In this document: piece after piece, positions 5,231-28,865 of the stretch | Numbering within the stretch: position 1 is the stretch's first letter | How the letters are laid out: every line of letters starts with the position of its first letter | From: Sneathiellales bacterium | GTDB taxonomy: Bacteria > Pseudomonadota > Alphaproteobacteria > Minwuiales > Minwuiaceae | Direction: 5' to 3' | Assembly: GCA_026992315.1 (NCBI GenBank) | Contig: JALXAG010000283.1 | Location: forward strand, 1-32,152 | DNA length: 32,152 bases | Program-made: the position numbers and the translations under genes | The notes under the pieces: generated by a model | The model's input: the letters and a program-made list of their open reading frames with translations, nothing else | Database searches by the model: none | Told to the model about the DNA's origin: nothing

Positions 5231-7912
5231 ATGGAAAAAACAGAGAAAAAAAACGCGAATATAAAATATCGGCGCGATTACAGGCCGCCTGATTTCACAA
5301 TATCGCGTGTTTCACTGACCTTCGATTTGCACGATGAACGCACGATTGTGAAATCCCGCCTCGAAATCCACCGGCTAAATCCGGCGGCGGTCGAGCTTTG
5401 CCTGAATGCCGAGGCGATGAAGATTCGTTCGCTCAGCCTTGACGAACGGGCATTGGGCGCGGATGAATATCATTTCGCGGATGACCTGCTGCGCTTTCCC
5501 TGTGACAGGGACAGGGCCGTGATCAGGACCGAGGTGGAAATCGATCCTGCCGGCAACACCGCCCTGCAGGGGTTGTACATGTCCAACGGCATGTTCTGCA
5601 CCCAGTGCGAGGCCGAGGGCTTCCGCCGCATCACCCCCTTTATCGACCGGCCCGATGTGCTGGCCGTCTATGAGGTTACCGTAATTGCCGCCCGGGACCG
5701 TTTTCCGGTGCTGCTGTCCAACGGCAATCTGATCGAAACCGGGCGGGATGAGGAAGGGCGCCACTGGGCGCGCTGGCAGGATCCGTTTCCCAAGCCGTCC
5801 TATCTGTTCGCGCTGGTGGCGGGGGACCTGCGGGCCTATGAGGACAGTTTCACCACCGCTTCGGGGCGGGAGGTGGCGCTGAGGATTTATGTCGAGGAAA
5901 AGGACCTGCCCCGCTGCGCCTTCGCCATGGAAACCCTGAAGCGGGCGATGCGCTGGGACGAGGAACGCTTCGGGCGGGAATACGATCTGGACGTCTTCAT
6001 GATCGTGGCGGTGGAGCATTTCAATTTCGGCGCCATGGAAAACAAGGGCCTGAACATCTTCAATTCCAAATATATTCTTGCCGATCCGGCGACGGCCACG
6101 GATATGGATTACGCCCATATCGAGAGCATCGTCGCCCATGAATATTTTCACAACTGGACCGGCAACCGCATCACCTGCCGCGACTGGTTTCAGCTCAGCC
6201 TCAAGGAGGGGCTGACGGTTTTCCGCGATCAGGAATTTTCCGCCGATCAGGGAGAGCGGGACATCTGCCGGGTGCGCGACGTGCGCCAGCTTCGCGCGGC
6301 CCAGTTCCCCGAGGATGCCGGGCCGACCGCCCATCCCGTCCGCCCCGACAGCTATATGGAAATCGATAATTTCTATACCGCCACCGTTTACGAGAAGGGG
6401 GCGGAGGTCATCCGCATGATCCAGGAGATTGTGGGGGCGGAGGGGTTCCGCAAGGGCATGGATCTGTATTTCGACCGCCATGACGGGCAGGCGGTGACCT
6501 GCGATGACTTCGTGCAGGCGATGGAGGATGCGACAGGGGCGGATCTGTCCGTTTTCCGCCGCTGGTACGACCAGGCGGGCACGCCGGTGCTCGAAGCCTC
6601 CCTCGATTACGATGAGGATGCCGGACAGGCGCGGCTGCAGCTGCGCCAGTCCTGCCCGCCGACGCCGGGCCAGCCGGTGAAAAAGCCGCTGCATATTCCC
6701 GTGCGTCTCGGCCTGCTGGACGGGGAAGGGCGGGAACTGCCGCTGCGCATCGCCGGGGAAGAGGAGCAGGCGCCGGCGCATGAGCGCATCCTGCATCTGC
6801 GTGAGGAAAGCATGGAGGTCGTCTTCACCGATATTCCCGAACGCCCCCGGCCTTCATTGCTGCGGGGGTTCAGCGCGCCGGTGATTCTGAAGACGGCGCG
6901 CGACAGCGAAGACGATGCTTTTTTCCTCTCCCATGACAGCGATTTCTTCAACCGGTGGGAGGCCGCGCAAAATCTGGGCATCGCGGCGGTGTTCGATCAT
7001 TTGCGCGGGCGCAATGTCGCGGCGGCGGAACAGCTTCTGGAGGCAGCGGAAAAAGTGCTGGACGATGCCGCCCTGTCGCCGGCGCATCGGGCCCTGCTTC
7101 TGACCCTGCCGGGAGAAACCTATCTGGCGCAGAAGATGCAGGTGATCGAGGCAGAGCGTCTTCACGATGCCCGTGAAGCGATCCGCCGCAGCATCGGCGC
7201 CGGGCTGAAGGACGCCTGGGCCGGCTGCTATGAACGGCTGCGGTCCTCTGGCCCCTATCGCTATACGGCGGCGGATGCCGGGCAGCGGTCGCTGCGCAAC
7301 CTGTCGCTCGACTATCTTTATGCGGCCGAACCGGATGATGGCGCATTCCGGGCGCTGGAACAATATCACGGCGCCGGAAACATGACCGACCGGATGGCGG
7401 CGCTGTCGGTACTGGCCGATGCGGCGGGACGGGCGGATGTCGCGCAAAACGCCCAATGCCGGGCGGCGCTCGAGGATTTCTACGACCGCTGGCGCCACGA
7501 TGCCAATGTCATCGACAAATGGTTCGCGGTGCAGGCGACTGTGCCCTCCGCCGATACCCTGCAACGGGTGGAGGAACTGCAGAAACATCCGGCGTTCGAT
7601 CCGCGCAGCCCCAACAAGGTGCGGGCGCTGATCGGGGCGTTTGCCATGGCCAATCCGGTCGGTTTTCATCGCGCGGACGGACGGGGCTATGTGTTTCTTG
7701 CCGATTGGATTCTCAGGATGGATGCCATCAACGCCCAGGTGGCGGCGCGGCTGGCGGCGGCGTTTCGCGAATGGCGCCGTCACGATGAGCGGCACCAGGC
7801 GCTGATGGCCCGTGAAATGCGCCGTATCCTCGCCAGGGAGGATCTCTCGCGCGGTACCTATGAAATTGTTTCCCGCAGCCTGCAGGCTGCGGATGCAGAG
7901 GAAAAGCCATGA
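5231..7912 (+). CDS. pepN: Aminopeptidase N (M1 family zinc metallopeptidase)
   Basis: Cytoplasmic aminopeptidase that removes N-terminal residues from peptides in the last steps of protein breakdown. Of 893 residues from the ATG at 5231, the M1 exopeptidase motif GAMEN is at 267-271 and the zinc motif HEYFH at 303-307. The third zinc ligand is E326 in LKEGLTVFRDQEF, and the catalytic-tyrosine region is TATVYEKGAEVIRM. The C-terminal DUF3458 and helical domains run to the end, as in E. coli PepN (870 aa). An in-frame ATG at 5162 would add 23 non-conserved residues. I prefer 5231 because family homology begins just after it (YRRDYRPPDF), although its ribosome site is weak. Its stop overlaps the next start (ATGA). 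Confidence 0.95.
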   Translation: MEKTEKKNANIKYRRDYRPPDFTISRVSLTFDLHDERTIVKSRLEIHRLNPAAVELCLNAEAMKIRSLSLDERALGADEYHFADDLLRFPCDRDRAVIRTEVEIDPAGNTALQGLYMSNGMFCTQCEAEGFRRITPFIDRPDVLAVYEVTVIAARDRFPVLLSNGNLIETGRDEEGRHWARWQDPFPKPSYLFALVAGDLRAYEDSFTTASGREVALRIYVEEKDLPRCAFAMETLKRAMRWDEERFGREYDLDVFMIVAVEHFNFGAMENKGLNIFNSKYILADPATATDMDYAHIESIVAHEYFHNWTGNRITCRDWFQLSLKEGLTVFRDQEFSADQGERDICRVRDVRQLRAAQFPEDAGPTAHPVRPDSYMEIDNFYTATVYEKGAEVIRMIQEIVGAEGFRKGMDLYFDRHDGQAVTCDDFVQAMEDATGADLSVFRRWYDQAGTPVLEASLDYDEDAGQARLQLRQSCPPTPGQPVKKPLHIPVRLGLLDGEGRELPLRIAGEEEQAPAHERILHLREESMEVVFTDIPERPRPSLLRGFSAPVILKTARDSEDDAFFLSHDSDFFNRWEAAQNLGIAAVFDHLRGRNVAAAEQLLEAAEKVLDDAALSPAHRALLLTLPGETYLAQKMQVIEAERLHDAREAIRRSIGAGLKDAWAGCYERLRSSGPYRYTAADAGQRSLRNLSLDYLYAAEPDDGAFRALEQYHGAGNMTDRMAALSVLADAAGRADVAQNAQCRAALEDFYDRWRHDANVIDKWFAVQATVPSADTLQRVEELQKHPAFDPRSPNKVRALIGAFAMANPVGFHRADGRGYVFLADWILRMDAINAQVAARLAAAFREWRRHDERHQALMAREMRRILAREDLSRGTYEIVSRSLQAADAEEKP

Positions 7913-9150
7913 GTGGAAATGAAACGATGGGCGCGGCCATCATGGCCATGACCGATGCGCTGGCCCGCTGCAGCGAGGCGGGGCCGGGCGTCAGCCGCCA
8001 TTTCCTGACGCCCGAACACAAGCAGGCGGCGGCCCTGATCCGCGGCTGGATGGACGATGCGGGGATGGAAACCCATATGGATGCCATCGGCAATGTCGTT
8101 GGCCGTTATCGCGGCGACGGCAGTATCGGCCGCTGCCTGATCACCGGATCGCATCAGGATACGGTGCGTCAGGGGGGGCGCTATGACGGCATGCTCGGCA
8201 TCGTGACGCCGATTGTCTGTATTGCCGCCCTGAACAGGCAGGGGCGGCGCCTGCCTTTCGATATCGAGGTCATCGCCTTCGGTGACGAGGAAGGGGTGCG
8301 CTTCGGCACCACCCTGCTGGGCAGCCATGCCGTTGCCGGCAATTTCGATCCGGGCGTGCTGGATAAATGCGATCGGGCGGGTGTTTCGATTGCCGGGGCG
8401 CTGGAACGTTTCGGCCTCGATCCGGCCGGCATTCCCGCGGCCGCGCGCCGGGCGGAGGATGTGCTGGCCTATGTGGAACTGCATATCGAACAGGGTCCGG
8501 TGCTGGAGGCCGAAGGGCTGCCTGTCGGCGTGGTAACGGCGATTGCCGGTGCCACCCGTTCGCTTGTGCGCTTCACGGGCGTGGCGGGGCATGCGGGGAC
8601 GGTGCCGATGACGGCGCGGCGCGATGCCCTTGCCGGCGCGGCCGAAGCCATTCTGGCGGTGGAGCGCCTCTGCGCCGAGGGCAGGGATCTGGTCGGCACC
8701 GTCGGTATCGTCGAGGCCAGCCCGGGGGCCGCCAATGTCATTCCCGGCGGGGCCTCGTTCTCTTTGGACGTGCGCGCGCCCGGGGATGCAGACAGGGACA
8801 GGGTATTGGCGGCGATACGCGAAGAATTCGAAACTGTTTGCGCGCGCCGGGGGCTTTCGCTGGAAATCGAGGATGTCTATGACGAACCGGCGGTGACCTG
8901 CGCGCCCTGGCTGGTGGAGGCGGGCAGGGATGCCATCGCCGGTGAGGGGATTCGCCCGCTGGCCCTGTTCAGCGGTGCCGGTCACGATGCGGTGGCATTA
9001 TCCGCCATATGCGATGTCGGCATGTTGTTCGTGCGCTGCAAGGGCGGGATCAGCCACAATCCGGCGGAGGCGATCACGGAAGCGGATGCGGATACGGGGG
9101 CGCGGGTGTTTCTGCGCTATCTTGAGCGCATTGCGGAAAGAAGCGCCTGA
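7909..9150 (+). CDS. M20 family Zn-dependent hydrolase (allantoate amidohydrolase / N-carbamoyl-L-amino-acid hydrolase type)
   Basis: Binuclear metal amidohydrolase of the AllC/HyuC/beta-ureidopropionase branch of M20, cleaving N-carbamoyl or ureido compounds and releasing ammonia and CO2. The 413 residues show the expected metal ligands: H82 (GSHQDTV), D93 (GRYDGMLG), the acidic pair E127/E128 (GDEEGVRF), H192 (ELHIEQGPVLE) and H383 (GGISHNPAE). The lid/dimer domain contains VAGHAGTVPM (225-234). Sequence alone does not decide between allantoate and N-carbamoyl amino acids, so no symbol is given; no purine or hydantoin genes are adjacent. It overlaps pepN by four bases and has AGGAAAA just upstream, so the two peptidase-fold enzymes are likely co-translated, perhaps for nitrogen scavenging (inference). 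Confidence 0.9.
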   Translation: MSGNETMGAAIMAMTDALARCSEAGPGVSRHFLTPEHKQAAALIRGWMDDAGMETHMDAIGNVVGRYRGDGSIGRCLITGSHQDTVRQGGRYDGMLGIVTPIVCIAALNRQGRRLPFDIEVIAFGDEEGVRFGTTLLGSHAVAGNFDPGVLDKCDRAGVSIAGALERFGLDPAGIPAAARRAEDVLAYVELHIEQGPVLEAEGLPVGVVTAIAGATRSLVRFTGVAGHAGTVPMTARRDALAGAAEAILAVERLCAEGRDLVGTVGIVEASPGAANVIPGGASFSLDVRAPGDADRDRVLAAIREEFETVCARRGLSLEIEDVYDEPAVTCAPWLVEAGRDAIAGEGIRPLALFSGAGHDAVALSAICDVGMLFVRCKGGISHNPAEAITEADADTGARVFLRYLERIAERSA

Positions 9151-10083: not shown

Positions 10084-11475
10084 ATGATCAGGTTGTTCGG
10101 ACATTACATTCAGCGCACGTTCGTGTTGTTGGGTTTAATCGAACTGCTGCTGCTGGGCTTCAGCATGCTGGCGGCGCAGGTTCTGCGCCTGGCGATCGAG
10201 GGGAAGTTCGATCTGCCGGCGCTGGGGCAGAACTTTCTGCCGGAGGCGCTGATCTATGCCGGCATCTTCTGGCTGTCCATGGTGTCTTTGGGCCTGTATC
10301 AGCGGGAGACGGCCAACGATCTGTGGATGACCTTCATTCGCCTGCTGGCGAGCTTTGCCCTCGGCTTCGTCCTGCTGACCATCCTGATATATGTTTTCCG
10401 CGATATCGGCATCTGGCGCAGTGCCCTGGCGATTGCCATTCCCTTATCGTTGCTGCTGTTGCTGGCTTCACGCTGGATTTTTCTGCGCATCAGCCATCTG
10501 GATACCTTCAAGCGCCGCATATTGGTAATCGGCATTGGCAAGAACGCAGCCAAAATCGCCGAATTGGCCAAGCGTGAAACCCCTTCCTTCATTTGTGTGG
10601 GTTTCGTCGCGCTGACCGATATCGACCCGGAAGTGCCGGAGGATCAGGTATATCGCGGTGTCAACAGCATCCTTGATCTTGCCCAGAACGAGAAGGTCGA
10701 CGAGATTGTCGTCGCCCCCGCCGACCGGCGCGCCGGGCTGCCCATGCGGGATTTGCTGAACTGCAAATCCGCAGGGATCCGCATTGTCGAATATGCGACC
10801 TTCTTCGAACGGGAAACCGGCAAGGTCGATCTCGATGCCCTGCATCCGAGCTGGCTGATTTTCTCGGAGAATTTCGCGGCCAGCCGCCCGCAGCAGGTGC
10901 TGAAAAGGATCTTCGACATCACCGCCAGCCTGCTGTTGCTGATATTCAGCCTGCCGGTTCTCATCCTGACCGCCATCGGCATCAAACTGACCAGCCCGGG
11001 ACCGGTCTTCTACCGGCAGGAGCGGGTCGGGCGCGACGGCAAGACCTTCATGCTGCTGAAGTTCCGCTCCATGCGTACCGATGCCGAAAGCGACGGCGTG
11101 CCGCGCTGGGCGGCGGAGAAGGATTCACGCATCACCCCCATCGGTTCCTTTATCCGCACCACGCGTATCGACGAGATTCCCCAGATATTCAATGTGCTCA
11201 AGGGGGATATGAGCTTTATCGGCCCGCGGCCGGAGCGCCCCTTTTTCGTTGAAAGCCTGAGCATGGAAATTCCCTATTATACGGAACGTCATCAGGTGAA
11301 ACCGGGCATCAGCGGTTGGGCGCAGCTTAATTATCCTTATGGCGCTTCGGTTGCCGATGCCCGTGAAAAACTTTCCTACGATCTGTATTACATCAAGAAT
11401 TACAGCATCTTCCTCGACCTGATCGTGCTGATGCAGACCGTGCGTGTGGTGATCTGGCCCCAAGGCGTGCGCTGA
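10084..11475 (+). CDS. Polyprenyl-phosphate sugar-1-phosphate transferase (EpsB_2 type, PEP-CTERM/exopolysaccharide associated)
   Basis: Inner-membrane enzyme that moves a hexose-1-phosphate from a nucleotide sugar to undecaprenyl phosphate, the first step of a repeat-unit exopolysaccharide. Of 463 residues, the N-terminal part has membrane segments at about 13-33, 56-74, 86-104 and 115-135. A CoA_binding_3-like soluble domain follows (145-245), then a fifth hydrophobic segment (278-300). The catalytic bacterial sugar transferase domain (275-463) shows SPGPVFYRQERVGRDGK, FKFRSM-like LKFRSMRTDAES, DEIPQIFNVLKGDMSFIGPR and KPGISGWAQ. The start MIRLFGHYI and the full layout resemble TIGR03013 proteins linked to PEP-CTERM/exosortase loci. 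AGGAAGG at 10072-10078 supports the ATG. It stands alone here, without other polysaccharide genes. Confidence 0.9.
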   Translation: MIRLFGHYIQRTFVLLGLIELLLLGFSMLAAQVLRLAIEGKFDLPALGQNFLPEALIYAGIFWLSMVSLGLYQRETANDLWMTFIRLLASFALGFVLLTILIYVFRDIGIWRSALAIAIPLSLLLLLASRWIFLRISHLDTFKRRILVIGIGKNAAKIAELAKRETPSFICVGFVALTDIDPEVPEDQVYRGVNSILDLAQNEKVDEIVVAPADRRAGLPMRDLLNCKSAGIRIVEYATFFERETGKVDLDALHPSWLIFSENFAASRPQQVLKRIFDITASLLLLIFSLPVLILTAIGIKLTSPGPVFYRQERVGRDGKTFMLLKFRSMRTDAESDGVPRWAAEKDSRITPIGSFIRTTRIDEIPQIFNVLKGDMSFIGPRPERPFFVESLSMEIPYYTERHQVKPGISGWAQLNYPYGASVADAREKLSYDLYYIKNYSIFLDLIVLMQTVRVVIWPQGVR

Positions 11476-11613
11476 CAGCCGCTTTCGGTTTCGCCCTCCG
11501 CGGGTTTCTTCCCCTGCTCCTGGCGGTGCTTCGCTCCTCTCCTGCCGGTTGCCGGCCTTTCCCTTCCGCTTGTTCGTCTGCCTGTTGTTGTCCGGTTTTT
11601 TCGTTGCTGCTAG

Positions 11614-11635
11614 TTGACGTTTACGTAAACGTTAA
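11614..11635. promoter_or_regulatory. Palindromic operator overlapping a putative promoter of the lipid gene cluster
   Basis: ACGTTTACGTAAACGT (11617-11632) is a perfect 16-base palindrome. Including flanking TT and AA it extends to 22 bases with one mismatched pair. TTGACG at 11614-11619 could be a -35 element, with GATAGG 16 bases further as a poor -10, so a bound protein would sit on the spacer as MerR-family regulators do. From memory, LiuR-type MerR regulators of fatty-acid and branched-chain amino-acid catabolism recognise sites of this kind. That assignment is inference; the palindrome itself is directly visible. Confidence 0.6.
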
Positions 11636-11654
11636 GATAGGGTGGGAATGAAAC

Positions 11655-12689
11655 ATGAAGGCCGGGGGTGTTATGGATTATTGGGAGGGGCAAGCCCCTG
11701 CTGCCGGCACGGCGCAAGAGGTTCTGCCCGGTATTTTCTGGATACGGATGCCTCTGCCGATCAGGGGGCTGGAAACGATCAATCTGTGGCTGTTGCGCGA
11801 TGGCGATGGCTGGACCCTGATCGATACCGGGCTGGGCACGGGAGAAATTCACCGTCTGTGGCAGCAGATCTTCGCCACGGTTCTGGCGGGCGCACCGATC
11901 AAACGGGTGATTTGTACGCATTTTCATCCCGATCACACGGGACAGGCCGGATGGATCGTGGAGCGTTTCGGTGCCGCCTTTCACATGAGTGCCGGCGAAT
12001 GGTCGTTCGGGCGGATGTTGTGGCTCGACAGCCAGCCGGAGGTACCGGCCTATGTTCTCGGTTTTCTGCGGCGGCAGGGATGGGACGAGGCTGCGCTCGC
12101 CCATCAGGAGAGCCGCGGTTACAACATGCTGGCCAGAAGCATCCGCCAATATCCCCATTCCTTCACCCGGCTGGCGGATGGGCAGCGGATGAATATCGGC
12201 GGGCGTTACTGGCGGGTGATGGTGGGGCGCGGGCATTCGCCGGAACATTGCTGCCTGTATGACGAGGTCGATAACATTCTCATATCCGGCGACCAGATCC
12301 TGCCGGCCATCAGTCCGCATATCGGCGTTTATCCAAGCGAACCGGATGCCGACCCGCTGGGCGATTACCTGTCTTCGCTGAAGGATTTCGCCCGTCTGCC
12401 CGACGATTGCCTGGTCCTGCCGGCTCATGGCCATGTCTTTCGCGGGCTCGGCCGTCGCATCAGGGCATTGCAGGCCCATCATCGGGAGCGGGTCGATGCC
12501 ATCTGTGCCTTTTTTGCAAGACCTGCACCGGCGGTGGCCTGTTTTCCCGCCCTGTTCGCACGCCCGATAACCGATGAAAACCGCATGTTGGCGACGGCCG
12601 AGGCGCTGGCCCATATCAACCGCGCCTTGCGGGAAGGACGGCTGCAGCGCCGCCCCGAAGGCGATGTGACGATGTATGAAGCCGCCTGA
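11655..12689 (+). CDS. MBL-fold metallo-hydrolase (LACTB2-like)
   Basis: Metallo-beta-lactamase-fold hydrolase, probably acting on a thioester or other ester; the exact substrate is unknown. Of 344 residues, strand-helix features NLWLLRDGDGWTLIDTGLGTGE (43-64) lead to the metal motif THFHPDHTG with H89, H91, D93 and H94. GRGHSPEHCCL supplies the next histidine, SGDQIL the bridging aspartate and PAHGH the last histidine, so the dinuclear site is complete. A winged C-terminal domain follows, as in LACTB2-like proteins. GGTGGGA stands about eight bases ahead of the ATG at 11655; an in-frame ATG at 11673 is an alternative start. Directly downstream of the palindromic operator and first of three co-directional lipid-type genes. 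Confidence 0.88.
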   Translation: MKAGGVMDYWEGQAPAAGTAQEVLPGIFWIRMPLPIRGLETINLWLLRDGDGWTLIDTGLGTGEIHRLWQQIFATVLAGAPIKRVICTHFHPDHTGQAGWIVERFGAAFHMSAGEWSFGRMLWLDSQPEVPAYVLGFLRRQGWDEAALAHQESRGYNMLARSIRQYPHSFTRLADGQRMNIGGRYWRVMVGRGHSPEHCCLYDEVDNILISGDQILPAISPHIGVYPSEPDADPLGDYLSSLKDFARLPDDCLVLPAHGHVFRGLGRRIRALQAHHRERVDAICAFFARPAPAVACFPALFARPITDENRMLATAEALAHINRALREGRLQRRPEGDVTMYEAA

Positions 12690-12740
12690 GGGAAAGGCGG
12701 ATTTTTCCCATTCCGGCGGAAGAAAAACGGAGGCAAGACA

Positions 12741-13565
12741 ATGAGTGATCTGGGTGGCAAGGTACTTTTCATCACCGGCGCCAGCCGGGGAATCGGCAAG
12801 GCCATCGCCCTGCGTGCAGCCCGCGACGGTGCGGCGGTCGTCATCGCCGCCAAGACCGACAAGCCGCACCGCAAGCTGCCGGGAACCATATACACGGCGG
12901 CCGAAGAGATCGAGCAGGCCGGCGGACGGGCCCTGCCGCTGGTGGTCGATGTCCGCGACGAAGAAGCCGTCGGCAATGCCGTGAAGGCGGCCGTGCAGCA
13001 TTTTGGCGGCATCGATATTCTGATCAACAATGCCAGCGCGATCAGCCTGACGGGAACGCTGGAAACGCCGATGCGCCGCTACGATCTGATGCATCAGGTC
13101 AATGCCCGGGGCACGTTCCTTTGTTCGCAGAAATGTCTGCCGGCGCTGCTGGAGGCGGAAAACCCGCATATTCTGAATATCTCGCCGCCGCTGAACATGG
13201 AGGAACGCTGGTTTGCCCCGCATGTTGCCTATACCATGGCCAAATACGGGATGAGCATGTGTGTTCTCGGCATGGCAGGCGAGTTCCGCGCCAAAGGCGT
13301 GGCGGTCAATGCCCTCTGGCCGAAAACCGCCATCGATACGGCCGCGATGGCCATGCTTGGCGGGCCGGATGCAGCCCGTAACTGCCGTAAGCCCGAGATC
13401 ATGGCCGATGCCGCGCACCGGATCCTGACCCGCCCGTCGCGGGAGGCCACGGGGAATTTCTACATAGACGAAGACGTGCTGCGCGAAGCCGGTGTGGAGG
13501 ATTTCAGCATCTATCTCAATGAGGGCGGTCGGGAGGACCGGCTATTGCCCGATTTCTTCCTTTAG
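12741..13565 (+). CDS. Short-chain dehydrogenase/reductase, HSDL2-like
   Basis: NAD(P)-dependent oxidoreductase of the classical SDR type, closest in pattern to bacterial HSDL2-like proteins found with fatty-acid genes; substrate not known. The 274 residues contain the cofactor motif TGASRGIGKA (12-21), NNAS (96-99), catalytic S148 within NISPPLN, and Y164/K168 in YTMAKYG. The ISPPLN stretch in place of the usual ISS is a mark of this subgroup. GGAGG at 12729-12733 is seven bases before the ATG. It lies 51 bases behind the MBL hydrolase and 167 before the acyl-CoA ligase, supporting a shared lipid-catabolic role (inference). Confidence 0.9.
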   Translation: MSDLGGKVLFITGASRGIGKAIALRAARDGAAVVIAAKTDKPHRKLPGTIYTAAEEIEQAGGRALPLVVDVRDEEAVGNAVKAAVQHFGGIDILINNASAISLTGTLETPMRRYDLMHQVNARGTFLCSQKCLPALLEAENPHILNISPPLNMEERWFAPHVAYTMAKYGMSMCVLGMAGEFRAKGVAVNALWPKTAIDTAAMAMLGGPDAARNCRKPEIMADAAHRILTRPSREATGNFYIDEDVLREAGVEDFSIYLNEGGREDRLLPDFFL

Positions 13566-13705
13566 GTAGGCTCCGGGCTCCGGACCCTAAAAGCAGGAGA
13601 TGCCGGGAAGGTGAGGCGGCACGTCGGCAGGGGAAGGCAAAATCCTGTAGGCGGGTCGGTTTTCCGTGACTATGGTAATAAAAATGATAAATTGCCATAT
13701 CTACC

Positions 13706-13713
13706 GAACGTTC
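13706..13713. promoter_or_regulatory. GAACGTTC palindrome upstream of the acyl-CoA ligase
   Basis: The perfect eight-base palindrome lies 19 bases before the ATG at 13733 and just ahead of the ribosome site AGGGAGGG (13717-13724). TetR-family regulators of fatty-acid genes often use sites with an ACGTTC-like core, so it may be an operator. At eight bases it could also be chance. Confidence 0.25.
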
Positions 13714-13732
13714 ATTAGGGAGGGTTGGACGC

Positions 13733-15415
13733 ATGAACGCCCCATGGGTTAAGAAATATCCCCCGGGTCTGGATCCCGAAGCCACTTTTACCCCGCGGCC
13801 CTTGTATTCGCTGCTCGATGATGCGGTGGCCCGCTTTCCCAAACATCCGGCAATGGATTTCCTGGGCAAGCGTTACGATTACGCCACATTGGGCGATCTG
13901 GTCGATCGTGCGGCGAAAGGCTTTCGGGCCCTGGGGGTCAGGCGCGGGGTCAAGGTCGGGTTGTTCCTGCCCAATTGTCCGCAATTCGTGATCAGCTATT
14001 ACGGCATTCTCAAGGCCGGGGGTACGGTAGTCAATTTCAGCCCGCTGTATTCGGCGCCGGAACTGCTGCATCAGATCGAGGATTCACACACCGATATCAT
14101 GGTGACGCTGAATCTGCAGGCCCTGTATCCGAACATGGCGAAGATGCTGCAGGAAAGCAGGTTGCAGAAGCTGGTGATCGGCACCATGTCCGAGGTGCTG
14201 CCGTTTCCGAAAAATCTGCTCTTCCCGCTGGTCAAGCGTGCCGATATCGCCGCTGTTCCGCGTGATGAGCGCCACATTTCCTTCAAACAGCTACTCGCCA
14301 ATGACGGGCGCATGGAGCCGGCCGAGGTCGATCCAAAGGAGGACATCGCCGTGCTCCAGTATACGGGCGGGACCACCGGAGTTGCCAAGGGGGCGATGCT
14401 GACCCATGCCAATCTGAGCGCCAATACCGAACAGGCGGTGATGTGGTTCACCAACTGCGAGGAAGGCCAGGAGCGCATGCTGGGCGTGCTGCCGTTCTTT
14501 CACGTTTTCGCCATGACGTCGGTGATGAATTTTTCGATCCGCATCGGTGCGGAAATCATCATGATGCCGCGTTTCGAACTTGAAGGGGCGCTGGAGCTGA
14601 TCGACAAGCGCAAACCGACCCTCATGCCCGGCGTGCCGACCATGTATACGGCGATGATGAACCATCCCGACATCGGCAAATACGATCTCAGCTCGATCAA
14701 GGGCTGTATATCCGGCGGGGCGCCGCTGCCGATAGAGGTCAAGCAGGGTTTCGAGAAACTTTCGGGCTGCAAGCTGGTCGAAGGCTACGGGCTGACGGAA
14801 ACGTCGCCGGTCGTTGCCTGTAACCCGCTGGAAGGGGAAAGCAAGGAAGGGTCGATCGGCCTGCCGGTGCCGGGAACGCGGATCGCCATTCTCGACCGCG
14901 AGGATCCGACAAAAGAAATGCCGATCGGCGAACCGGGCGAGATCTGCGTTGCCGGGCCGCAGGTGATGAAAGGCTACTGGAACCGCCCCGAGGCGACGGA
15001 GGCCACCATCATCGACGGCCTGCTGCACACGGGCGATATCGCCTATATGGACGAGGACGGCTATTGTTTCATCATTGACCGGATCAAGGATCTGATCCTG
15101 TGCAGCGGCTTCAACGTCTACCCCCGCGTTGTCGAGGAGGCGATCTATCAGCACCCGGCGGTCGAGGAGGTGACGGTGATCGGCATTCCCGACAAATATC
15201 GTGGCGAGGCCCCGAAAGCCTTCATCAAGCTGCGCGAAGGCATGACGGCGACCGAAGAGGAGATCATCGCTTTCTGCCGCGAGCGGCTGGGCAAGCATGA
15301 GATCCCCCAGGAAGTGGAATTCCGCGACGAACTGCCCAAGACCATGATCGGCAAATTGTCGAAAAAGGAACTGGTGGCCGAGGAACGCGCCCGCCGCGAG
15401 GCGGCCGGGGACTGA
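13733..15415 (+). CDS. Long-chain fatty acid--CoA ligase (AMP-forming)
   Basis: Activates fatty acids to acyl-CoA through an acyl-adenylate, the entry step to beta-oxidation; peripheral on the inner membrane. The 560 residues fit the FadD group. The ATP loop YTGGTTGVAKGAMLTH lies near 207-222 and GYGLTETSPV in the second adenylate motif. HTGDIAYMDEDGYCFIIDR is followed by the acyl-CoA synthetase signature IKDLILCSGFNVYPRVVEE, and the C-terminal catalytic lysine is in LPKTMIGKLSKKEL. AGGGAGGG ends eight bases before the ATG. It closes the 11655-15415 lipid-type set, and a strong hairpin terminator follows 40 bases after its stop. Chain-length preference cannot be read from sequence. Confidence 0.94.
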   Translation: MNAPWVKKYPPGLDPEATFTPRPLYSLLDDAVARFPKHPAMDFLGKRYDYATLGDLVDRAAKGFRALGVRRGVKVGLFLPNCPQFVISYYGILKAGGTVVNFSPLYSAPELLHQIEDSHTDIMVTLNLQALYPNMAKMLQESRLQKLVIGTMSEVLPFPKNLLFPLVKRADIAAVPRDERHISFKQLLANDGRMEPAEVDPKEDIAVLQYTGGTTGVAKGAMLTHANLSANTEQAVMWFTNCEEGQERMLGVLPFFHVFAMTSVMNFSIRIGAEIIMMPRFELEGALELIDKRKPTLMPGVPTMYTAMMNHPDIGKYDLSSIKGCISGGAPLPIEVKQGFEKLSGCKLVEGYGLTETSPVVACNPLEGESKEGSIGLPVPGTRIAILDREDPTKEMPIGEPGEICVAGPQVMKGYWNRPEATEATIIDGLLHTGDIAYMDEDGYCFIIDRIKDLILCSGFNVYPRVVEEAIYQHPAVEEVTVIGIPDKYRGEAPKAFIKLREGMTATEEEIIAFCRERLGKHEIPQEVEFRDELPKTMIGKLSKKELVAEERARREAAGD

Positions 15416-15455
15416 AGGGTAGCCGTCCCGTACGGCAGGAGCCGTTTCAGGCAAC

Positions 15456-15490
15456 AAAAAAACCGGGGATGGCGCATCCCCGGTTTTTTT
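15456..15490. terminator. Strong bidirectional intrinsic terminator
   Basis: A perfect 16-base-pair stem with a three-base loop (GCG, 15472-15474). Seven A, then CCGGGGATG, pair with CATCCCCGG followed by seven T. The A and T runs flank the GC stem symmetrically, so it ends transcripts from either side: the acyl-CoA ligase (+, stop at 15415) and the chemoreceptor (-, stop at 15512). Confidence 0.95.
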
Positions 15491-15511
15491 CATGTCACCC
15501 TTGCGCTGCCG

Positions 15512-17791
15512 TTACATGGCGCGGATTTCATTGAGGAAGCGATCGACCTCCTGGCGCAGGGTATCCGATGTCTGGTTCAGATGCTCTGCCGCTTTCAGGA
15601 CGTCACTGGATACGCGCCCGGTTTCCGCCGCCGCCGCCTGAACGGCGGAGATGTTCTGATTGACCTCCTGGGTGCCGCTGGCCGCCTGATTGACGCTTTG
15701 GCTGATTTCGGTGGTGGCGGCACTCTGTTCCTCCACGGCGCCGGCGATGGCCGTGGCAATACCGTTGATCTGGGCGATGGTTTCCCCGATCGACTGGATC
15801 GCGCCGGCGGCGCCGGTAGTGGCATTCTGAATGCCGGAGATCTGGGTGGAGATTTCCTCGGTTGCCTTGGCGGTCTGACTGGCGAGATTCTTCACCTCGC
15901 TGGCCACGACGGCAAAGCCCTTGCCCGCTTCGCCGGCCCGTGCCGCTTCGATGGTGGCGTTCAGGGCCAGCAGATTGGTCTGATTGGCAATATCGGAAAT
16001 AAGCTGCACCACTTCCCCGACCTTATTGGCGGCATCGACCAGGCTGCGTACCTCCGCATTGGTCTTTTCGGCATCGCGCACTGCCTTGTTGGAGATATCC
16101 GCGGCCTGCGTCACCTGACCGGAGATTTCGGTGATGGAGGCCGATAGCTGTTCCGTGGCCCCGGCAACCGCCTGAACATTGCTGGATGCCACATCCGATG
16201 CGCGCGAGGCTGCCGATGTCTGCGATGCGGTTTCATCGGCGGTGCGCACCATCTGGGTGGCATTCTGCTGGATGCCGGTGGCGGCTTCGCCGACGGTATC
16301 GACCACGCCCTTGACCGTGCTCTCGAAGCGCTGGGCCAGTTCATGCAGCAGCTTGCGCCGCTGTTCGTTGGCTTCCTGCTGCTGACGTTCCTCCAGGCGA
16401 TGGCGCTCTTCCTCGGCCCGGCGTTCGGCGGCTTCGCGTTCCAGACGTTCCTTTTCCTGTTGGGCGCGCAGTTCCTCCTGCTCTTCCTGCAGGCGCTTGT
16501 TTTCACGCATATTGTCGCGGAAAATACTGATGGTGCGGGCCATTTGACCGATCTCGTCCATGCGGTCGGTGAAGGGCACCTTGACGTTCAGATCGCCACT
16601 GCGCAGATCGACCAGGGTCTTGGTGATAACGGTGATCGGATTACTGAACTTGCGCCCGACGATCAGGCCGAGAATGCCCAGCAATACCAGCCCCGCCAAC
16701 GTGCCGAGAATCATCTGATTACGCATGGCATCGACCGGGGCGAGCACTTCGGCCTTGTCGAATTCGGCCACCACCGCCCAGGTGGTCTCTGGCATTTCCA
16801 GGGGTTCGTAGGCAGCCAGGGCTTCACGGCCGCGATAGCTTGTAACCTCGGCGCTGCCGGTTTCCCCCTTCAGGGCGCGGGTGACCGCCGGGCTGTCCAC
16901 CTTTTGCTTCAGGATGGTTTCGGTTTTGCTGAAGCGCGAATCGCTGCGCATCAGCCCGTCCGGCCCGACGATATAGACCTCGCCGCTTTCGCCCAGCCCG
17001 GTGGGGTTGTTCAGAATGACATTGATCTGGCTATCGTCGATGCGGAAGGCGACGGCGCCCTTAAGCTCGTTTTCCGAATTGAACAGCGGCGCGGCGAAAA
17101 AGGCCGACGGTTCGTCGCTGGCGGGATATTCGGAAAAATCGACGAAGGTCACCTTACCGGGTTTGGGATCGGTCATGGCCTGTGCGAAGGCGCGGCCCAG
17201 GCCGCTGTCCTTCAGCGGACCGTTTTTCAGATCGGCGGCAAAATCGTCGTTCTTGGCGGCTGAATAGATGACCATGCCCTTGGGATCGATCAGATAGAGA
17301 TCGGCATATTTGCGCGCGATGCGGAAATCGTTGAACCAGGGATGATACATGCCGTGCATGATGCTGTACATCTGATCGTCATCGGCTTCGATCAGCTTGT
17401 CGCGTTCACCGGCCGGATTGGGGTTTTTCTCGATATAGGAGGTGCGGAGAATCTTCTGCGCATCGGCTCCCATCATTTCAACGGCACCGCTCAGTTCGCT
17501 GGCATTGCCGGAAAAGGCCGGGCTGCGGCTCTGAATGGCGATTTCCTGACGGATCGCATCCAGATAACCCGCCACCTGATTCTTGCGGGAATCGCGCAGG
17601 GCTTCCAGCCGGTCATCGGCAAGATTGCTGACATCATCCTCGGCACTCAGATAGCTGACGACTCCGGTGATCAGGGAGGACAGCAGGGCAAAGGCAAGAA
17701 TCAGCAACGGCAGCTTCACCTTGAGGTTCAGATGAAACCCGTTTTTTTCCTTCGTGCCGGTCGGTTTGGTTGCGGTACTGGTGGCGGCCAT
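15512..17791 (-). CDS. Methyl-accepting chemotaxis protein (dCache-HAMP-MA)
   Basis: Transmembrane chemoreceptor that passes ligand signals to CheA/CheW. The start at 17791 gives 759 residues: TM1 at about 26-48, a periplasmic double-Cache-like sensor (50-355; [19 protein letters not shown] and [13 protein letters not shown] mark the two halves) and TM2 at about 360-378. HAMP is at 380-430, then a long Glu/Arg/Gln-rich coiled coil (430-490), then the signalling domain with tip [20 protein letters not shown] and GFAVVASEV. No C-terminal CheR-docking pentapeptide is present. Upstream in-frame ATGs at 17821 and 17854 exist, but CGGGGA lies eight bases ahead of 17791 only. No chemotaxis genes are adjacent, so it is an orphan receptor. 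Confidence 0.93.
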
Positions 17792-17913: not shown

Positions 17914-18065
17914 CGGCCGTTTGAAGACAGAATTATTCTTTTCCGGACAGAAAAACGTATTTGAGACAATTGATTAGACATGCAAGAAATTCAGTACCGG
18001 CTAACGGTTTTGTCTCTGTCCGGTTACCGGCTCTTTATGATTCCGTTCTGTCTTCATAACGGCCG
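17914..18065. repeat. Long imperfect inverted repeat between hemA and the chemoreceptor gene
   Basis: CGGCCGTTTGAAGACAGAA (17914-17932) is matched in reverse complement by 18046-18065 with one inserted base and otherwise the same sequence. Inside it CCGGACAG (17943-17950) pairs with CTGTCCGG (18016-18023). The octamer TACCGGCT occurs twice (17995-18002, 18025-18032), and the left arm begins within the perfect palindrome AAACGGCCGTTT (17911-17922). The 305-base gap 17792-18096 has no open frame of note. The repeat could be the hemA terminator structure, a small RNA or the trace of a short palindromic element. I see no target duplication at its ends. Confidence 0.55.
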
Positions 18066-18096
18066 GGGGCCCGTTTCTTTCCAAAAGACGTTCTTT

Positions 18097-19308
18097 TCAG
18101 GCGGCCTGTTTCAGCCCCAGACGGTTCCAGACTTCCTTCAGCGATGCGACCAGGTGATTCATGGCATCGTCATCATGCAGCGGCGTCGGGGTGATGCGCA
18201 GCCGTTCCAGCCCCTTGGGCACGGTCGGGAAATTGATCGGCTGAATATAGATATTGTAATCGTTCAGCAGCAGATCGCTGGCCTGTTTGCACAGTTCGGG
18301 GTCGCCCACCAGCACCGGGACCACATGGGTTTCGCTCGGCATGACCGGCAGGTTGGCTTCACGCAGCATGCGCTTGAGGGTGGCGGCACGTTCCTGATGG
18401 CGTTCGCGTTCGGCATTGCTGTGGCGCAGGTGACGGATGCTGGCCAGCGCCCCGGCGGCCACGGCCGGCGGCAGGGCGGTGGTGAAAATGAACCCGGAGG
18501 CATAGGAGCGCACCATATCGCAAAGAGCCGCCGATCCGGCTATATAACCGCCAAGGGCGCCGAAAGCCTTGCCGAGCGTGCCGTTGATCACGGTGATGCG
18601 GTCCGAAAGCCCGTCGCGCTGGGCGATGCCGCCGCCCTGATGTCCGTACATGCCGACGGCATGAACCTCGTCCAGATAGGTGATGGCATTGTATTTATCG
18701 GCCAGATCGCAGAAAGCCTCGATCGGGGCGACATCGCCATCCATGGAGTAGACGGATTCGAAGGCAATCAGCTTTGCCCGTCCCGGCTCGATCTGACGGA
18801 GCAGTTCTTCGAGATGTTCGGGATCGTTGTGGCGGAAGATCTTCTTTTCGCAGCCGGAGTGGCGGATGCCCTCGATCATCGAGGCATGGTTGAGCGAATC
18901 GGAAAGAATGACACAGTCGGGAAGCTTTCTGGCGATGGTGCTGATGGCTGCCTCATTGGCGACATAGCCGGAGGTGAAGACCAGGGCCGCTTCCTTTTCG
19001 TGCAGTTCCGCCAGTTCGCGCTCCAGTTCGCACAGGGGATGGTGCGATCCGGAAATGTTCCGCGTGCCTCCGGCGCCGGAACCGTACAGATCGATGGCAT
19101 CCTTCATCGCCTGCAGCACCTTGGGGTGCTGGCCCATGCCGAGATAGTCGTTCGAGCACCAGACCATGACATCGCATTCCTCCCCGGCGGAGAAGTTGCG
19201 GGCATTGGGGAAGTTCCCCGCATAACGCCCGAGTTCCGTGAATACGCGGTACCGTTTCTCCCTGCGAATGGCTTCGATCGCATCGGCGAATACCTGTTCG
19301 TAATTCAC
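18097..19308 (-). CDS. hemA: 5-aminolevulinate synthase (ALAS)
   Basis: PLP enzyme that condenses glycine and succinyl-CoA to 5-aminolevulinate, the first step of tetrapyrrole synthesis by the C4 route used in alphaproteobacteria. From the GTG at 19308 it has 403 residues, matching family length. Signposts are [10 protein letters not shown] at the start, [16 protein letters not shown] (75-90), [12 protein letters not shown] (211-222) and the PLP lysine K247 in [13 protein letters not shown] (19316-19320 on the other strand) is seven bases from the GTG. A longer ATG frame to 19437 would add 43 residues of non-family sequence and is rejected. The same-strand chemoreceptor follows after 305 bases. 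The leader has hairpins at 19353-19372 and 19451-19467. Confidence 0.96.
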
Positions 19309-19352
19309 GATAGGGCTCCTTGTCTTCTGGTGCCGGGGCGGCCGGTACATTC

Positions 19353-19372
19353 CCGTGCCGTTGCCGGCACGG
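19353..19372. repeat. Perfect hairpin 44 bases upstream of hemA
   Basis: CCGTGCCG (19353-19360) and CGGCACGG (19365-19372) form eight GC-rich pairs around TTGC. It would fall in the hemA leader on the minus strand. There is no U run on that strand, so it is not a normal terminator for the upstream efflux genes. No FnrL-like TTGAT-N4-ATCAA box is seen nearby. Confidence 0.45.
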
Positions 19373-19450
19373 CATTTTCCGCCGTCTCCCATGCGCGCCG
19401 CCTGTGCGGCTCTGCCTTGCGAAATGCGCAAATCCACTTCTTTTTCTACT

Positions 19451-19467
19451 CCTGCCCGGGGGGCAGG
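19451..19467. repeat. Short perfect hairpin between the efflux permease and hemA
   Basis: CCTGCCC and GGGCAGG pair exactly around GGG. It lies 64 bases beyond the permease stop on the minus strand. The stem is strong, but an AGTAGAAAAAG stretch and not a U run follows on that strand, so it could only act as a weak or Rho-assisted stop, or protect the 3' end (inference). Confidence 0.35.
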
Positions 19468-19530
19468 TCCAGACCGCAGAAACGAAAAACCGCATGAATT
19501 TCTCGTATTATCTCCATCCTCTGCGCGGTG

Positions 19531-25203: not shown

Positions 25204-26147
25204 TGACGGTGACGAAAATGCAAGGACCGGGCGCGCCGGTGGCGGCTGAGGCGGTGGCGCCGGATTCGGCGCTGACGGATGGGGCGCTGAAACGTTTCGC
25301 GGCGGAATTCGAACCGGTGCTGGCCGGGCTTCTGCAGCCGTTGCAGGGCATTCCCCGCCTGGGCGAGGCGATGGCCTATTCCCTGCTCGATGGCGGCAAG
25401 CGGCTGCGGCCGTTTCTGCTGGTTACCGCGGCCGGTCTTTACGGTGTCGCGCGGCCATCGGCAATGCGGGCGGCGGCTGCGATCGAGATGGTGCACAGCT
25501 ATTCGCTGATCCATGACGATCTGCCCTGCATGGATGACGATGTATTGCGCCGGGGGCGGGCCACCTGCCATGTCCGCTATGACGAGGCGACGGCGGTTCT
25601 GGCCGGGGATGCGCTGCTGACGGCGGCGTTTGCGCTGCTGGCCGATCCGCGCACCGATGCGGATCCGGCCTGCCGCATCGAACTGGTGCGTCTGCTGTCC
25701 GGGGCCGCCGGGGCACAGGGCATGGTCGGCGGGCAGATGCTGGATCTGCTTGCCGAGGGCGAGGCTTTGGCGCAGGATGCGCTGGAAAGGCTGCACGGGC
25801 TGAAAACGGGTGCGATGATCGTCTGCGCCGTCGAATGCGGGGCGGTTCTGGGCCGGGCCCCGGCAGAGGAACGGGCGGCGCTGTGCGAATATGCGCGCCT
25901 TCTCGGTCTGGCCTTTCAGGTGATGGACGATGTGCTGGATGTTTCCGGCACGGCGGAGGAGCTGGGCAAGACACCGGGCAAGGACGCCGTGGCGGAAAAA
26001 TCCACCTTCGTTTCCCTGCTGGGGGTGGACGGTGCCCGCGCCTATGCCGGGGAACTGGCGGCCCGTGCCGCCGCTGCCATAGAGACCATCGGGGGGACGG
26101 AACAGTTGCGCGCGGTGGCGGATTACATCGTCCGTCGCCGGGCATGA
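25203..26147 (+). CDS. ispA: Polyprenyl synthetase, farnesyl diphosphate synthase
   Basis: Condenses IPP with DMAPP and GPP to farnesyl diphosphate, the branch point to undecaprenyl phosphate, ubiquinone and hopanoids. The 314 residues show GGKRLRP (64-70), the first aspartate-rich motif D105-D113 (DDLPCMDDD), [12 protein letters not shown], the KTG motif at 201-203 and the second aspartate-rich motif DDVLD (242-246). The two-residue insertion in the first motif (DDxxxxD) marks the bacterial type II FPP synthase. The start at 25203 overlaps the xseB stop; a longer frame to 25104 would lie within xseB and is rejected. It overlaps dxs by four bases. Confidence 0.95.
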
Positions 26148-28072
26148 AATCGGGTGAAGATGTGTCAGAACTGAAAACGCCGTTACTGGACAGGGTGAAA
26201 CTGCCGCGGGACCTGCGGGCGCTGGACGAGGATCTGCTGCCCCAGCTTGCCGACGAGCTGCGCCGCGAGATGATCGATGCCGTTTCGGTGACCGGCGGTC
26301 ATCTGGGCGCCGGGCTCGGCGTGGTCGAACTGACGGTGGCCCTGCATTATGTCTTCGACACCCCGGCCGACCGCCTGATCTGGGATGTCGGCCATCAATG
26401 CTATCCGCACAAGATTCTGACCGGGCGGCGGGACCGCATCCGCACGCTGCGTCAGGGCGGCGGGCTGTCGGGCTTCACCAAGCGCAGCGAAAGCGAATAC
26501 GATCCCTTCGGCACGGCGCATTCCTCGACCTCGATTTCCGCCGGGCTCGGCATGGCCGTGGCCCGGGACATTCTGGGCGGGAACAACCGGGTGGTGGCGG
26601 TGATCGGCGATGGCGCCATGAGTGCGGGCATGGCCTATGAGGCGATGAACAATGCCGGGGCGCTGAAGACGCCGATGGTCGTCGTCCTGAACGATAACGA
26701 CATGTCGATCGCCCCGCCGGTGGGGGCGATGAGCGCCTATCTGTCGCGCCTGCTGTCGGGCCAGCCCTACCGCAACCTGCGCGAAGTGGCCAAGCATCTG
26801 GCCCGCCATCTGCCCGAAGGGCTGGAACGGACCGCCCGGCGCGCCGAGGAATATGCCCGGGGGCTGATCACCGGCGGCACCCTGTTCGAAGAGCTCGGCT
26901 TTTACTATGTCGGGCCGGTGGACGGGCATAATATCGCCCATCTTCTGCCGGTGCTGCGCAATGTCCGCGATTATGCCGACGGGCCGGTGCTGCTGCATGT
27001 GGTGACCCAGAAGGGCAAGGGCTACCCGCCGGCGGAAGCGGCGGCGGACAAGTATCACGGCGTTTCCCGTTTCGATGTGGTGACGGGCAAGCAGGCCAAG
27101 CCCAAGGCCAATGCCCCCTCCTATACCGGGGTGTTCGCGGAACAGCTGGTGCGCCAGGCGGAACGGGACGAGCGCATTGTCGCCATCACCGCCGCCATGC
27201 CCGACGGCACCGGGCTGAGCCGTTTCGCCGAAAAATTCCCCGCCCGCTGTTTCGATGTCGGCATTGCCGAACAGCATGCGGTAACCTTTGCCGCCGGGCT
27301 GGCCTGCGAGGGGCTGAAACCCTTTGCCGCCCTGTATTCGACCTTTCTGCAGCGCGGTTACGATCAGGTGGTGCACGATGTGGCGATTCAGCGCCTGCCG
27401 GTGCGCTTTGCCATCGACCGGGCCGGGCTGGTCGGCGCGGACGGACCGACCCATGCCGGATCCTACGATATCGCCTATCTGGCCAACCTTCCCGATTTTG
27501 TCGTCATGGCTGCCGCCGATGAGGCGGAGCTGGCGCGGATGATCGCCACGGCGGTCGCCATCGATGATCGGCCTTGCTCCTTCCGCTATCCGCGTGGCGA
27601 AGGGGTGGGGGTTGAAATCCCCGAGGATCCGGCGCCGCTGGAAATCGGCAGGGGGCGCATGGTTCAGGAGGGCAATGCCGTCGCCATTCTCTCCTTCGGG
27701 GCCAGGCTGAAGACCTGCCTGCTGGCGGCGGAGGAACTGGCCGCGCGCGGGCTGAGGCCGACGATTGCCGATGCCCGCTTCTGCAAGCCGCTGGATACGG
27801 AACTGGTGGATCGGCTGGCGCGCGAACATGAGGTGCTGATCACCGTCGAGGAAGGCGCCATCGGCGGCTTTGCCAGCCATGTGCTGGACCATCTGGTGCG
27901 TCAGGATCTGCATGCCTCGCTGAAGCTGCGTCCGATGATGCTGCCGGATCGCTTCATCGATCAGGATTCGCCCGAAAAAATGTATGAAGCCGCCGGTCTG
28001 GGGGTGCGCGACATCGTCGATACGGCGCTGCTGGCGCTGGGCCGCGCCGATCTGATGGCCCATGGCGCGTGA
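26144..28072 (+). CDS. dxs: 1-deoxy-D-xylulose-5-phosphate synthase
   Basis: Thiamine-diphosphate enzyme joining pyruvate and glyceraldehyde 3-phosphate to DXP, the entry of the MEP isoprenoid pathway (DXP also feeds thiamine and pyridoxal synthesis). The 642 residues include [19 protein letters not shown] (53-71), [15 protein letters not shown] (81-95), the ThDP motif [17 protein letters not shown] through NDN (156-185) and [18 protein letters not shown] with the cofactor glutamate. The transketolase C-terminal domain closes it. Length is close to E. coli Dxs (620 aa). The start overlaps the ispA stop (ATGA). Upstream extension of the frame lies inside ispA and is not coding. The end overlaps tlyA by 11 bases. 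Confidence 0.97.
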
Positions 28073-28865
28073 GGCGCCGGTGACGGCGGGCGGAAGCGAA
28101 AACAAGAAGGCGAAAAAGGCGAAAAAGAAGCGCGCCGATGTGCTGCTGGTCGAACGCGGGCTGGCGGAAAGCCGTAGCCGCGCCCAGGCATTATGTCTGG
28201 CGGGGGTGGTGTTCAGCGGTGAAAAACGTATCGACAAGGCAGGGCAGCCGCTGGCGGAGGATGCGCCCTTGCAGGTGCGCGGGCGCGATCATTCCTGGGT
28301 ATCACGCGGCGGGCTGAAGCTCGATCATGCGCTGGGGCAGTTTCCCGTTCCGGTGCGCGATGCCGTGGCCATCGATATCGGTGCCTCGACCGGCGGATTT
28401 ACCGATGTGCTGCTGCATCACGGGGCAAGGCGGATCTATGCGGTCGATGTCGGTCACGGCCAGCTTCACTGGAAGCTGCGCAACGACGAGCGGGTGGTGG
28501 TGCTGGAAAAATGCAATGCCCGTCATCTGAGCGCGGCCGAGGTGCCGGAGGCCGTCGATCTGGTGGTCTGCGATGCCAGTTTCATCGGCCTGCGCACGGT
28601 TCTGCCGGCGCCGCTGGCGCTTCTGCGCCCGGGGGGCTGGCTGGTGGCGCTGATCAAGCCGCAATTCGAGGTGGGGCGCGAACAGGTCGGCAAGGGCGGG
28701 GTGGTGCGCGATCCGGCCCTGCACGAGGCTGCCTGTGCCACGATCCGCGACTGGCTCGGGCAACAGCCCGGCTGGATTGTTCATGGCGTCAGCGAAAGCC
28801 CGATCACCGGGCCGGAGGGCAATAAGGAGTTTCTGATTGTTGCAGAAAAAGGCACGTCGACGTAA
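28062..28865 (+). CDS. tlyA: TlyA family rRNA (cytidine-2'-O)-methyltransferase
   Basis: Predicted 2'-O-methyltransferase of 16S/23S rRNA cytidines, by analogy with mycobacterial TlyA; some homologues are called hemolysins. The 267 residues begin with a lysine-rich tail (about 14-24), then an S4 RNA-binding domain (25-75; [19 protein letters not shown]). The linker [11 protein letters not shown] (81-91) is typical of TlyA. The FtsJ-like SAM domain has [15 protein letters not shown] (104-118), [10 protein letters not shown] and LIKPQFE with the catalytic lysine. It starts inside the end of dxs and its stop lies 26 bases past the next start, so it is embedded in a coupled operon. The dxs-tlyA linkage is frequent in alphaproteobacteria. 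Confidence 0.93.

Follow-up and report, generated by a model that had tools for sequence, protein, structure and literature searches.

A predicted LiuR-type operator before an MBL-fold hydrolase gene recurs at acyl-CoA catabolic loci of Proteobacteria

Described regulators of acyl-CoA catabolism

The closest described counterpart of the site reported here belongs to LiuR, which is presented as a regulator of the MerR family that governs the breakdown of branched-chain amino acids in Proteobacteria (PMC5343134, PMC3223726). In the account of Rhodospirillum rubrum, an alphaproteobacterium like the source of our sequence, a MerR-like LiuR has an ILV box upstream of its own gene and its regulon proteins rise on butyrate; unlike in our system the box precedes ivd and liu clusters, the generality of this regulon layout across Alphaproteobacteria is called unknown, and the main text of that account holds no mention of "lactamase" (PMC7238569). 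Fatty-acid degradation regulons are described for PsrA (TetR), FadR (GntR) and FadP (TetR) (PMC5343134), these are alike in their control of beta-oxidation but belong to protein families other than that of the MerR-family regulator found here. The literature searched yielded neither the letters of our operator nor an account of a MerR-family beta-oxidation regulon in Alphaproteobacteria. Among the titles listed, no apt link between LiuR and metallo-beta-lactamases was found in that literature either, and PMC9023270 contributed nothing to the question, the scope of the literature stopping short of RegPrecise and of the founding paper on the LiuR regulon, reportedly that of Kazakov et al. (2009).

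We analysed a 32,152 nucleotide stretch of a Sneathiellales bacterium (hereafter the window), in which a palindrome lies ahead of genes for a metallo-beta-lactamase (MBL) fold hydrolase, a short-chain dehydrogenase (SDR) and an acyl-CoA ligase. As in the LiuR regulon, the MerR-family gene of this genome has its own site and the predicted targets are acyl-CoA catabolic; what differs is that, of the two sites of the genome, one precedes a fatty-acid beta-oxidation operon and the other the MBL gene. With considerable confidence, resting on sequence comparison, we interpret the palindrome as the operator of a LiuR-type MerR repressor encoded on contig C139 of the same genome, with the MBL gene induced together with beta-oxidation. 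Systems of this kind have been described before; what is useful here is the repeated MBL target.

The predicted operator and its twin in the source genome

The window contains a perfect 16 bp dyad, ACGTTTACGTAAACGT (11617-11632), which extends to a predicted 22 bp LiuR-type operator, TTGACGTTTACGTAAACGTTAA (11614-11635, unstranded), one mismatch away from a perfect dyad, the broken pair being G at position 3 and T at position 20. A sequence-only reading had pointed out this symmetry, its 22-base extension and its overlap with TTGACG, all of which were borne out by inspection, the hexamer forming a probable -35 within the operator (11614-11619, plus strand). A possible -10 hexamer, TAGGGT, follows after an 18-base spacer (11638-11643, plus strand), this is a weak match and was left unflagged by a consensus scan. 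The MBL-fold hydrolase gene (11655-12689, plus strand) encodes the motifs HFHPDH, GHSPEH, SGDQ and PAHGH, which we take to be the zinc ligands typical of active MBL-fold enzymes. Its ATG at 11655 lies 19 bases past the 22-mer and 22 bases past the 16-mer; however, because homology begins at residue 7 or beyond in 52 of 58 relatives and residue 7 is a methionine, the ATG at 11673, 37 bases past the 22-mer, is the likelier start.

We scanned the source genome (3.15 Mb, 284 contigs) with the 16-mer and with a reversed control pattern. The perfect 16-mer has two copies in the whole genome, neither of them inside a gene, and the sole other copy (C139:32754-32769) has TTGACGTTTACGTAAACGT in common with the window site and lies just upstream of a MerR-family gene and an operon containing acyl-CoA dehydrogenases. 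Allowing three or fewer mismatches gave 8 places in the whole genome against 7 for the control, matches below the perfect copies therefore look like background; the 22-base pattern with three mismatches matched just the two sites across the genome (control 1). No match to the 16-mer at three or fewer mismatches appeared in 100 shuffles of the window, and no second copy better than two mismatches was found in the window itself. A two-mismatch match at 28854-28869 is asymmetric, overlaps the end of tlyA and most likely arose by chance, and a match at C3:19963, inside an ORF that is presumably parB-like, was set aside as background. The site could have proved unique to the window or scattered at random positions inside genes, either of which had been named beforehand as speaking against a regulatory role, and neither is the case; we hold it very likely that the palindrome is a genuine regulatory element.

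The MerR-family gene beside the second copy (positions 7790-8323 of locus L009, start uncertain) owes its family assignment to MerR_1 and MerR-DNA-bind profile matches, both over their cut-offs. Behind it, on one strand, follow a thiolase, a FadB-type enzyme, two acyl-CoA dehydrogenases, a second thiolase and a second FadB-type enzyme, and judging by this gene content the regulator heads a predicted fatty-acid beta-oxidation operon. An Mpo1-like gene (PF06127, L009 7235-7588) lies on the far side of the second operator, is oriented away from the MerR gene and could come under the same control. Orthology of the regulator was probed by best-match searches between the C139 MerR and regulators adjoining perfect sites, in one forward and four reverse genomes. 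A Hydrogenophaga MerR found the C139 MerR as first match in the source genome (47%, next 33%), and in the reverse direction the MerR adjoining a perfect site ranked first in two of the four genomes, those of Diaphorobacter and a betaproteobacterial MAG. Sphingosinicella returned a 55% match, and the genome with the Sneathiella site-MBL locus described below gave no match to the C139 MerR at 1e-6.

For carboxyltransferase genes, no site was found near the four of six PF01039 matches of the source genome that were checked, one of these four beginning 261 bases into its contig. Control of branched-chain amino-acid degradation genes was likewise not seen in this genome, which has two strong sites only. 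With these two sites, and none near the four PF01039 matches, we therefore file the site as LiuR-type and do not class the whole regulon with the canonical LiuR ones. The original suggestion of a LiuR-type (MerR family) operator thus gains support from the MerR-headed twin operon and from the co-occurrence across 143 genomes reported below; its link to both fatty-acid and branched-chain catabolism holds for the former, as a beta-oxidation operon carries the site, but finds no counterpart for the latter at the carboxylase genes checked.

Site, regulator and targets in other genomes

We compared 143 genomes (the source genome and 142 others), with MBL matches in 59 and MerR matches in 52. An 18-base core of the site, at two or fewer mismatches, occurred in 39 of the 143 genomes at 69 places, against 24 places for the reversed control. 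It was present in 36/52 genomes with MerR vs. 3/91 without (p = 7e-18), whilst the reversed control had no link with MerR (7/52 vs. 14/91, p = 0.81). Sixteen of the 52 MerR genomes had no site at two or fewer mismatches, and the three genomes with a site and no MerR were one of 68% completeness (G072) and two with the site inside an ORF. By location, 31 of the 69 sites fall in the 400 bp ahead of a MerR match, another 6 are upstream of an MBL match, and the other 32 lie elsewhere. A site before the regulator's own gene, as in autoregulation, was found in 30 MerR upstream regions, the source genome included, among the best 41 of 58 MerR matches (five or fewer mismatches of 22).

For the 32 sites elsewhere, genes were called with a simple ORF picker, as they were in the 80 named loci described next, so that some gene calls are wrong in both sets, and 20 neighbouring proteins were profile-scanned. 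Some of these sites precede enoyl-CoA hydratases, a CoA-transferase, a FadL-type porin or an FMN/pyridine-nucleotide oxidoreductase, which we take to be a 2,4-dienoyl-CoA reductase, further ones precede a thiolase/FadB pair or SDR/acyl-CoA dehydrogenase sets. Others lie inside ORFs or by genes for a glucokinase and an RTX-repeat protein, a PIN domain, a histidine kinase, an amidohydrolase and luciferase-like proteins; sites in or beside such unrelated genes are expected in part as chance matches at two-mismatch stringency.

At least 119 stretches contain the perfect 22-mer, and 80 named ones among them come mostly from Comamonadaceae and other Burkholderiales, with some from Alpha- and Gammaproteobacteria. 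In these 80 stretches a MerR cluster was found in 30, an MBL cluster in 28 and an acyl-CoA dehydrogenase cluster in 33, and in 15 the 22-mer has the MBL gene as its immediate neighbour on one flank. Also in the neighbourhood are a 4HBT thioesterase, carbonic anhydrase, AceK, thiolase, carboxyltransferase, biotin carboxylase, a carboxygeranoyl-CoA-hydratase-like crotonase, the fused isobutyryl-CoA mutase IcmF and ETF. We read this gene set as LiuR-type, the company of MerR, acyl-CoA dehydrogenase, carboxyltransferase, biotin carboxylase and IcmF, mostly in Burkholderiales, being its point of likeness to the LiuR regulon, and the operator sequence of the window is identical to that at these liu-type genes, where liu-type is defined by the gene set and not by the published LiuR motif. 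The perfect 22-mer is recurrent in the promoter region of IcmF itself (L190 1375-4704 and others), again mostly in Burkholderiales.

The MBL upstream regions were scored with a matrix built from 23 distinct sites at MerR promoters of other genomes, on which the window operator reaches 38.9 bits. Seven of the 59 regions score at least 27 bits (6/58 without the source genome), and 3540 shuffles of these regions gave no strong site and a maximum of 11.8 bits. The seven strong-site genomes (the source genome, G001, G009, G052, G100, G128 and G130) come from six families. One additional region scores 13.7 bits, and the matrix scan found no convincing site in the remaining 51 of 59. Conservation at orthologous genes, the absence of which had been proposed as a third point against the site, is thus present in a minority of relatives. 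Genus g3, of the same family, has no strong site at any of its five MBL copies, and g3 MerR promoters carry the site. Three plus-strand g3 loci (L017, L018 and L019) share a conserved stretch, TTGACSTTTGCCGAG, ~100 bases upstream of the MBL match and at about the place of the operator, possibly the remnant of a degenerated site in which the -35 has been retained.

A tblastn search of the 119 loci (1e-25) matched MerR in 61 and MBL in 44, and 43 of these 44 MBL copies are preceded, within 400 bp, by a site scoring no less than 20 bits (26/27 in the first 80 loci), a biased rate given that the loci were picked by site and many are close kin. The site is the perfect 22-mer in 19 of the 43 and another site in 24; the sole copy without one is in L237. 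A tree of 57 MBL proteins has the site on 33 rows, 27 rows having been picked by site, and requires at least seven state changes, with which a single old gain followed by losses and several gains are indistinguishable. The MBL hydrolase gene is, by these comparisons, a recurrent predicted target of a LiuR-type site in Alpha- and Betaproteobacteria, and the recurrence at MBL promoters (7/59, against 0/3540 shuffles) supports the earlier placing of the MBL hydrolase in a MerR regulon.

Reach, direction and meaning of the proposed control

Between the MBL and SDR genes, at the end of the former, a hairpin carrying a T-run (12682-12700, plus strand) could act as terminator or attenuator; 11400-15600 holds 8 such hairpin/T-run sites on both strands against a shuffle mean of 3.2 (sd 2.5). 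The SDR gene follows at 12741-13565 (plus strand), its product matching the PRK08278 subfamily above the curated cut-off and presumably being the "HSDL2-like" SDR of the sequence-only reading, and after a 167-base gap comes the gene for an AMP-binding acyl-CoA ligase (13733-15415, plus strand), whose best NCBIfam matches are long-chain ligases under their cut-offs. The MerR-bound operator may control the MBL gene alone, with the SDR and ligase genes under promoters and regulation of their own, a quite plausible alternative towards which we do not lean. The hairpin and the gap before the ligase would fit it, as would the lack of any second operator ahead of the SDR or ligase gene in the window, and the MBL and SDR matches lie apart in 7 of the 13 genomes that have both (6 more genomes have an SDR without an MBL match). 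In the other 6, the source genome included, the two lie within 2.5 kb on one strand, which speaks for joint control, as do three individual loci: G127 keeps the MBL-SDR-ligase order (neither a MerR gene nor a site was found in that genome), a Sneathiella MAG has an acyl-CoA dehydrogenase, the site, MBL, an enoyl-CoA hydratase and an SDR (69% identical) in a row, and in G059 one of the sites lying elsewhere stands ahead of a ligase gene and then a MerR gene, this ligase being 57% identical to its window counterpart. From their position the SDR and ligase genes are perhaps under the operator, and would belong to the regulon only if cotranscribed with the MBL gene, which the hairpin may prevent by stopping transcripts ahead of the SDR gene.

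The direction of control is suggested by promoter geometry. Among 31 distinct sites at MerR promoters, the two positions that come 17 bases after TTGACG are mostly T (28/31) and A (27/31); these promoters have normal -35/-10 spacing and the dyad spans the -35 and nearly all of the spacer. MerR activators work on -35/-10 spacers of 19-20 bases, and activation by twisting an over-long spacer, in the way of MerR and CueR, is an improbable account here: the regulator does belong to the MerR superfamily, with CueR and MerR among its nearest solved structures by sequence, but the spacer is 17 bases and the dyad covers the -35 itself, an arrangement that suits a repressor and not a MerR-type activator. 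LiuR of Shewanella is likewise described as a repressor (PMC3223726). That the palindrome is a chance one or the site of an unrelated factor is very remote, for although most MBL orthologues (52/59) are without a strong site, the shuffle, genome, matrix, co-occurrence and 119-locus results oppose it.

Under the repressor interpretation, the LiuR-type regulator encoded on C139 would recognise the 22-mer, which has a single strong counterpart elsewhere in the genome. Its dimer would most likely cover the -35 hexamer and the spacer ahead of the MBL gene and so repress that promoter. Probably it also represses the gene that encodes it, together with the thiolase, FadB and acyl-CoA dehydrogenase genes that follow. 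When an acyl-CoA or related catabolite appears, which is the ligand we infer, the regulator would be released, and the MBL hydrolase, and perhaps the SDR and ligase, would be induced alongside beta-oxidation.

As to the activity of the hydrolase, a sequence search gave as nearest solved structures 6ao1, 5u8o and 5i0p, which carry generic names only, and a distant match to PqsE chains (about 1e-8 to 4e-7). PqsE, by its PDB name a 2-aminobenzoylacetyl-CoA thioesterase, has the MBL fold in common with the window hydrolase, as does human MBLAC2, presented as an MBL-fold acyl-CoA thioesterase (PMC7949124) and likened here by fold. From the genomic context and this distant similarity our guess is that the hydrolase may be an acyl-CoA thioesterase. 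More tentatively still, and in this full form rather doubtful, the MBL hydrolase may belong to the LiuR-type regulon across Alpha- and Betaproteobacteria as a widespread member that has been overlooked, a thioesterase freeing CoA from stalled or branched acyl-CoAs whilst the SDR and ligase handle and re-charge the acids, the regulator having shifted from leucine to fatty-acid breakdown in this lineage. The recurrent operator would in any case tie a hydrolase family with generically named nearest structures to acyl-CoA catabolism, making its substrate, and likewise the role of the adjoining SDR, testable, and it points to a LiuR-type operator in use at fatty-acid genes.

Elsewhere in the window, an N-terminal extension of Dxs (25835-28072) was judged from the translation to be a start-codon artefact. 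A 505-aa ORF (17980-19497) lies between chemotaxis receptor and RND pump genes and has no Pfam or NCBIfam match at 0.001.
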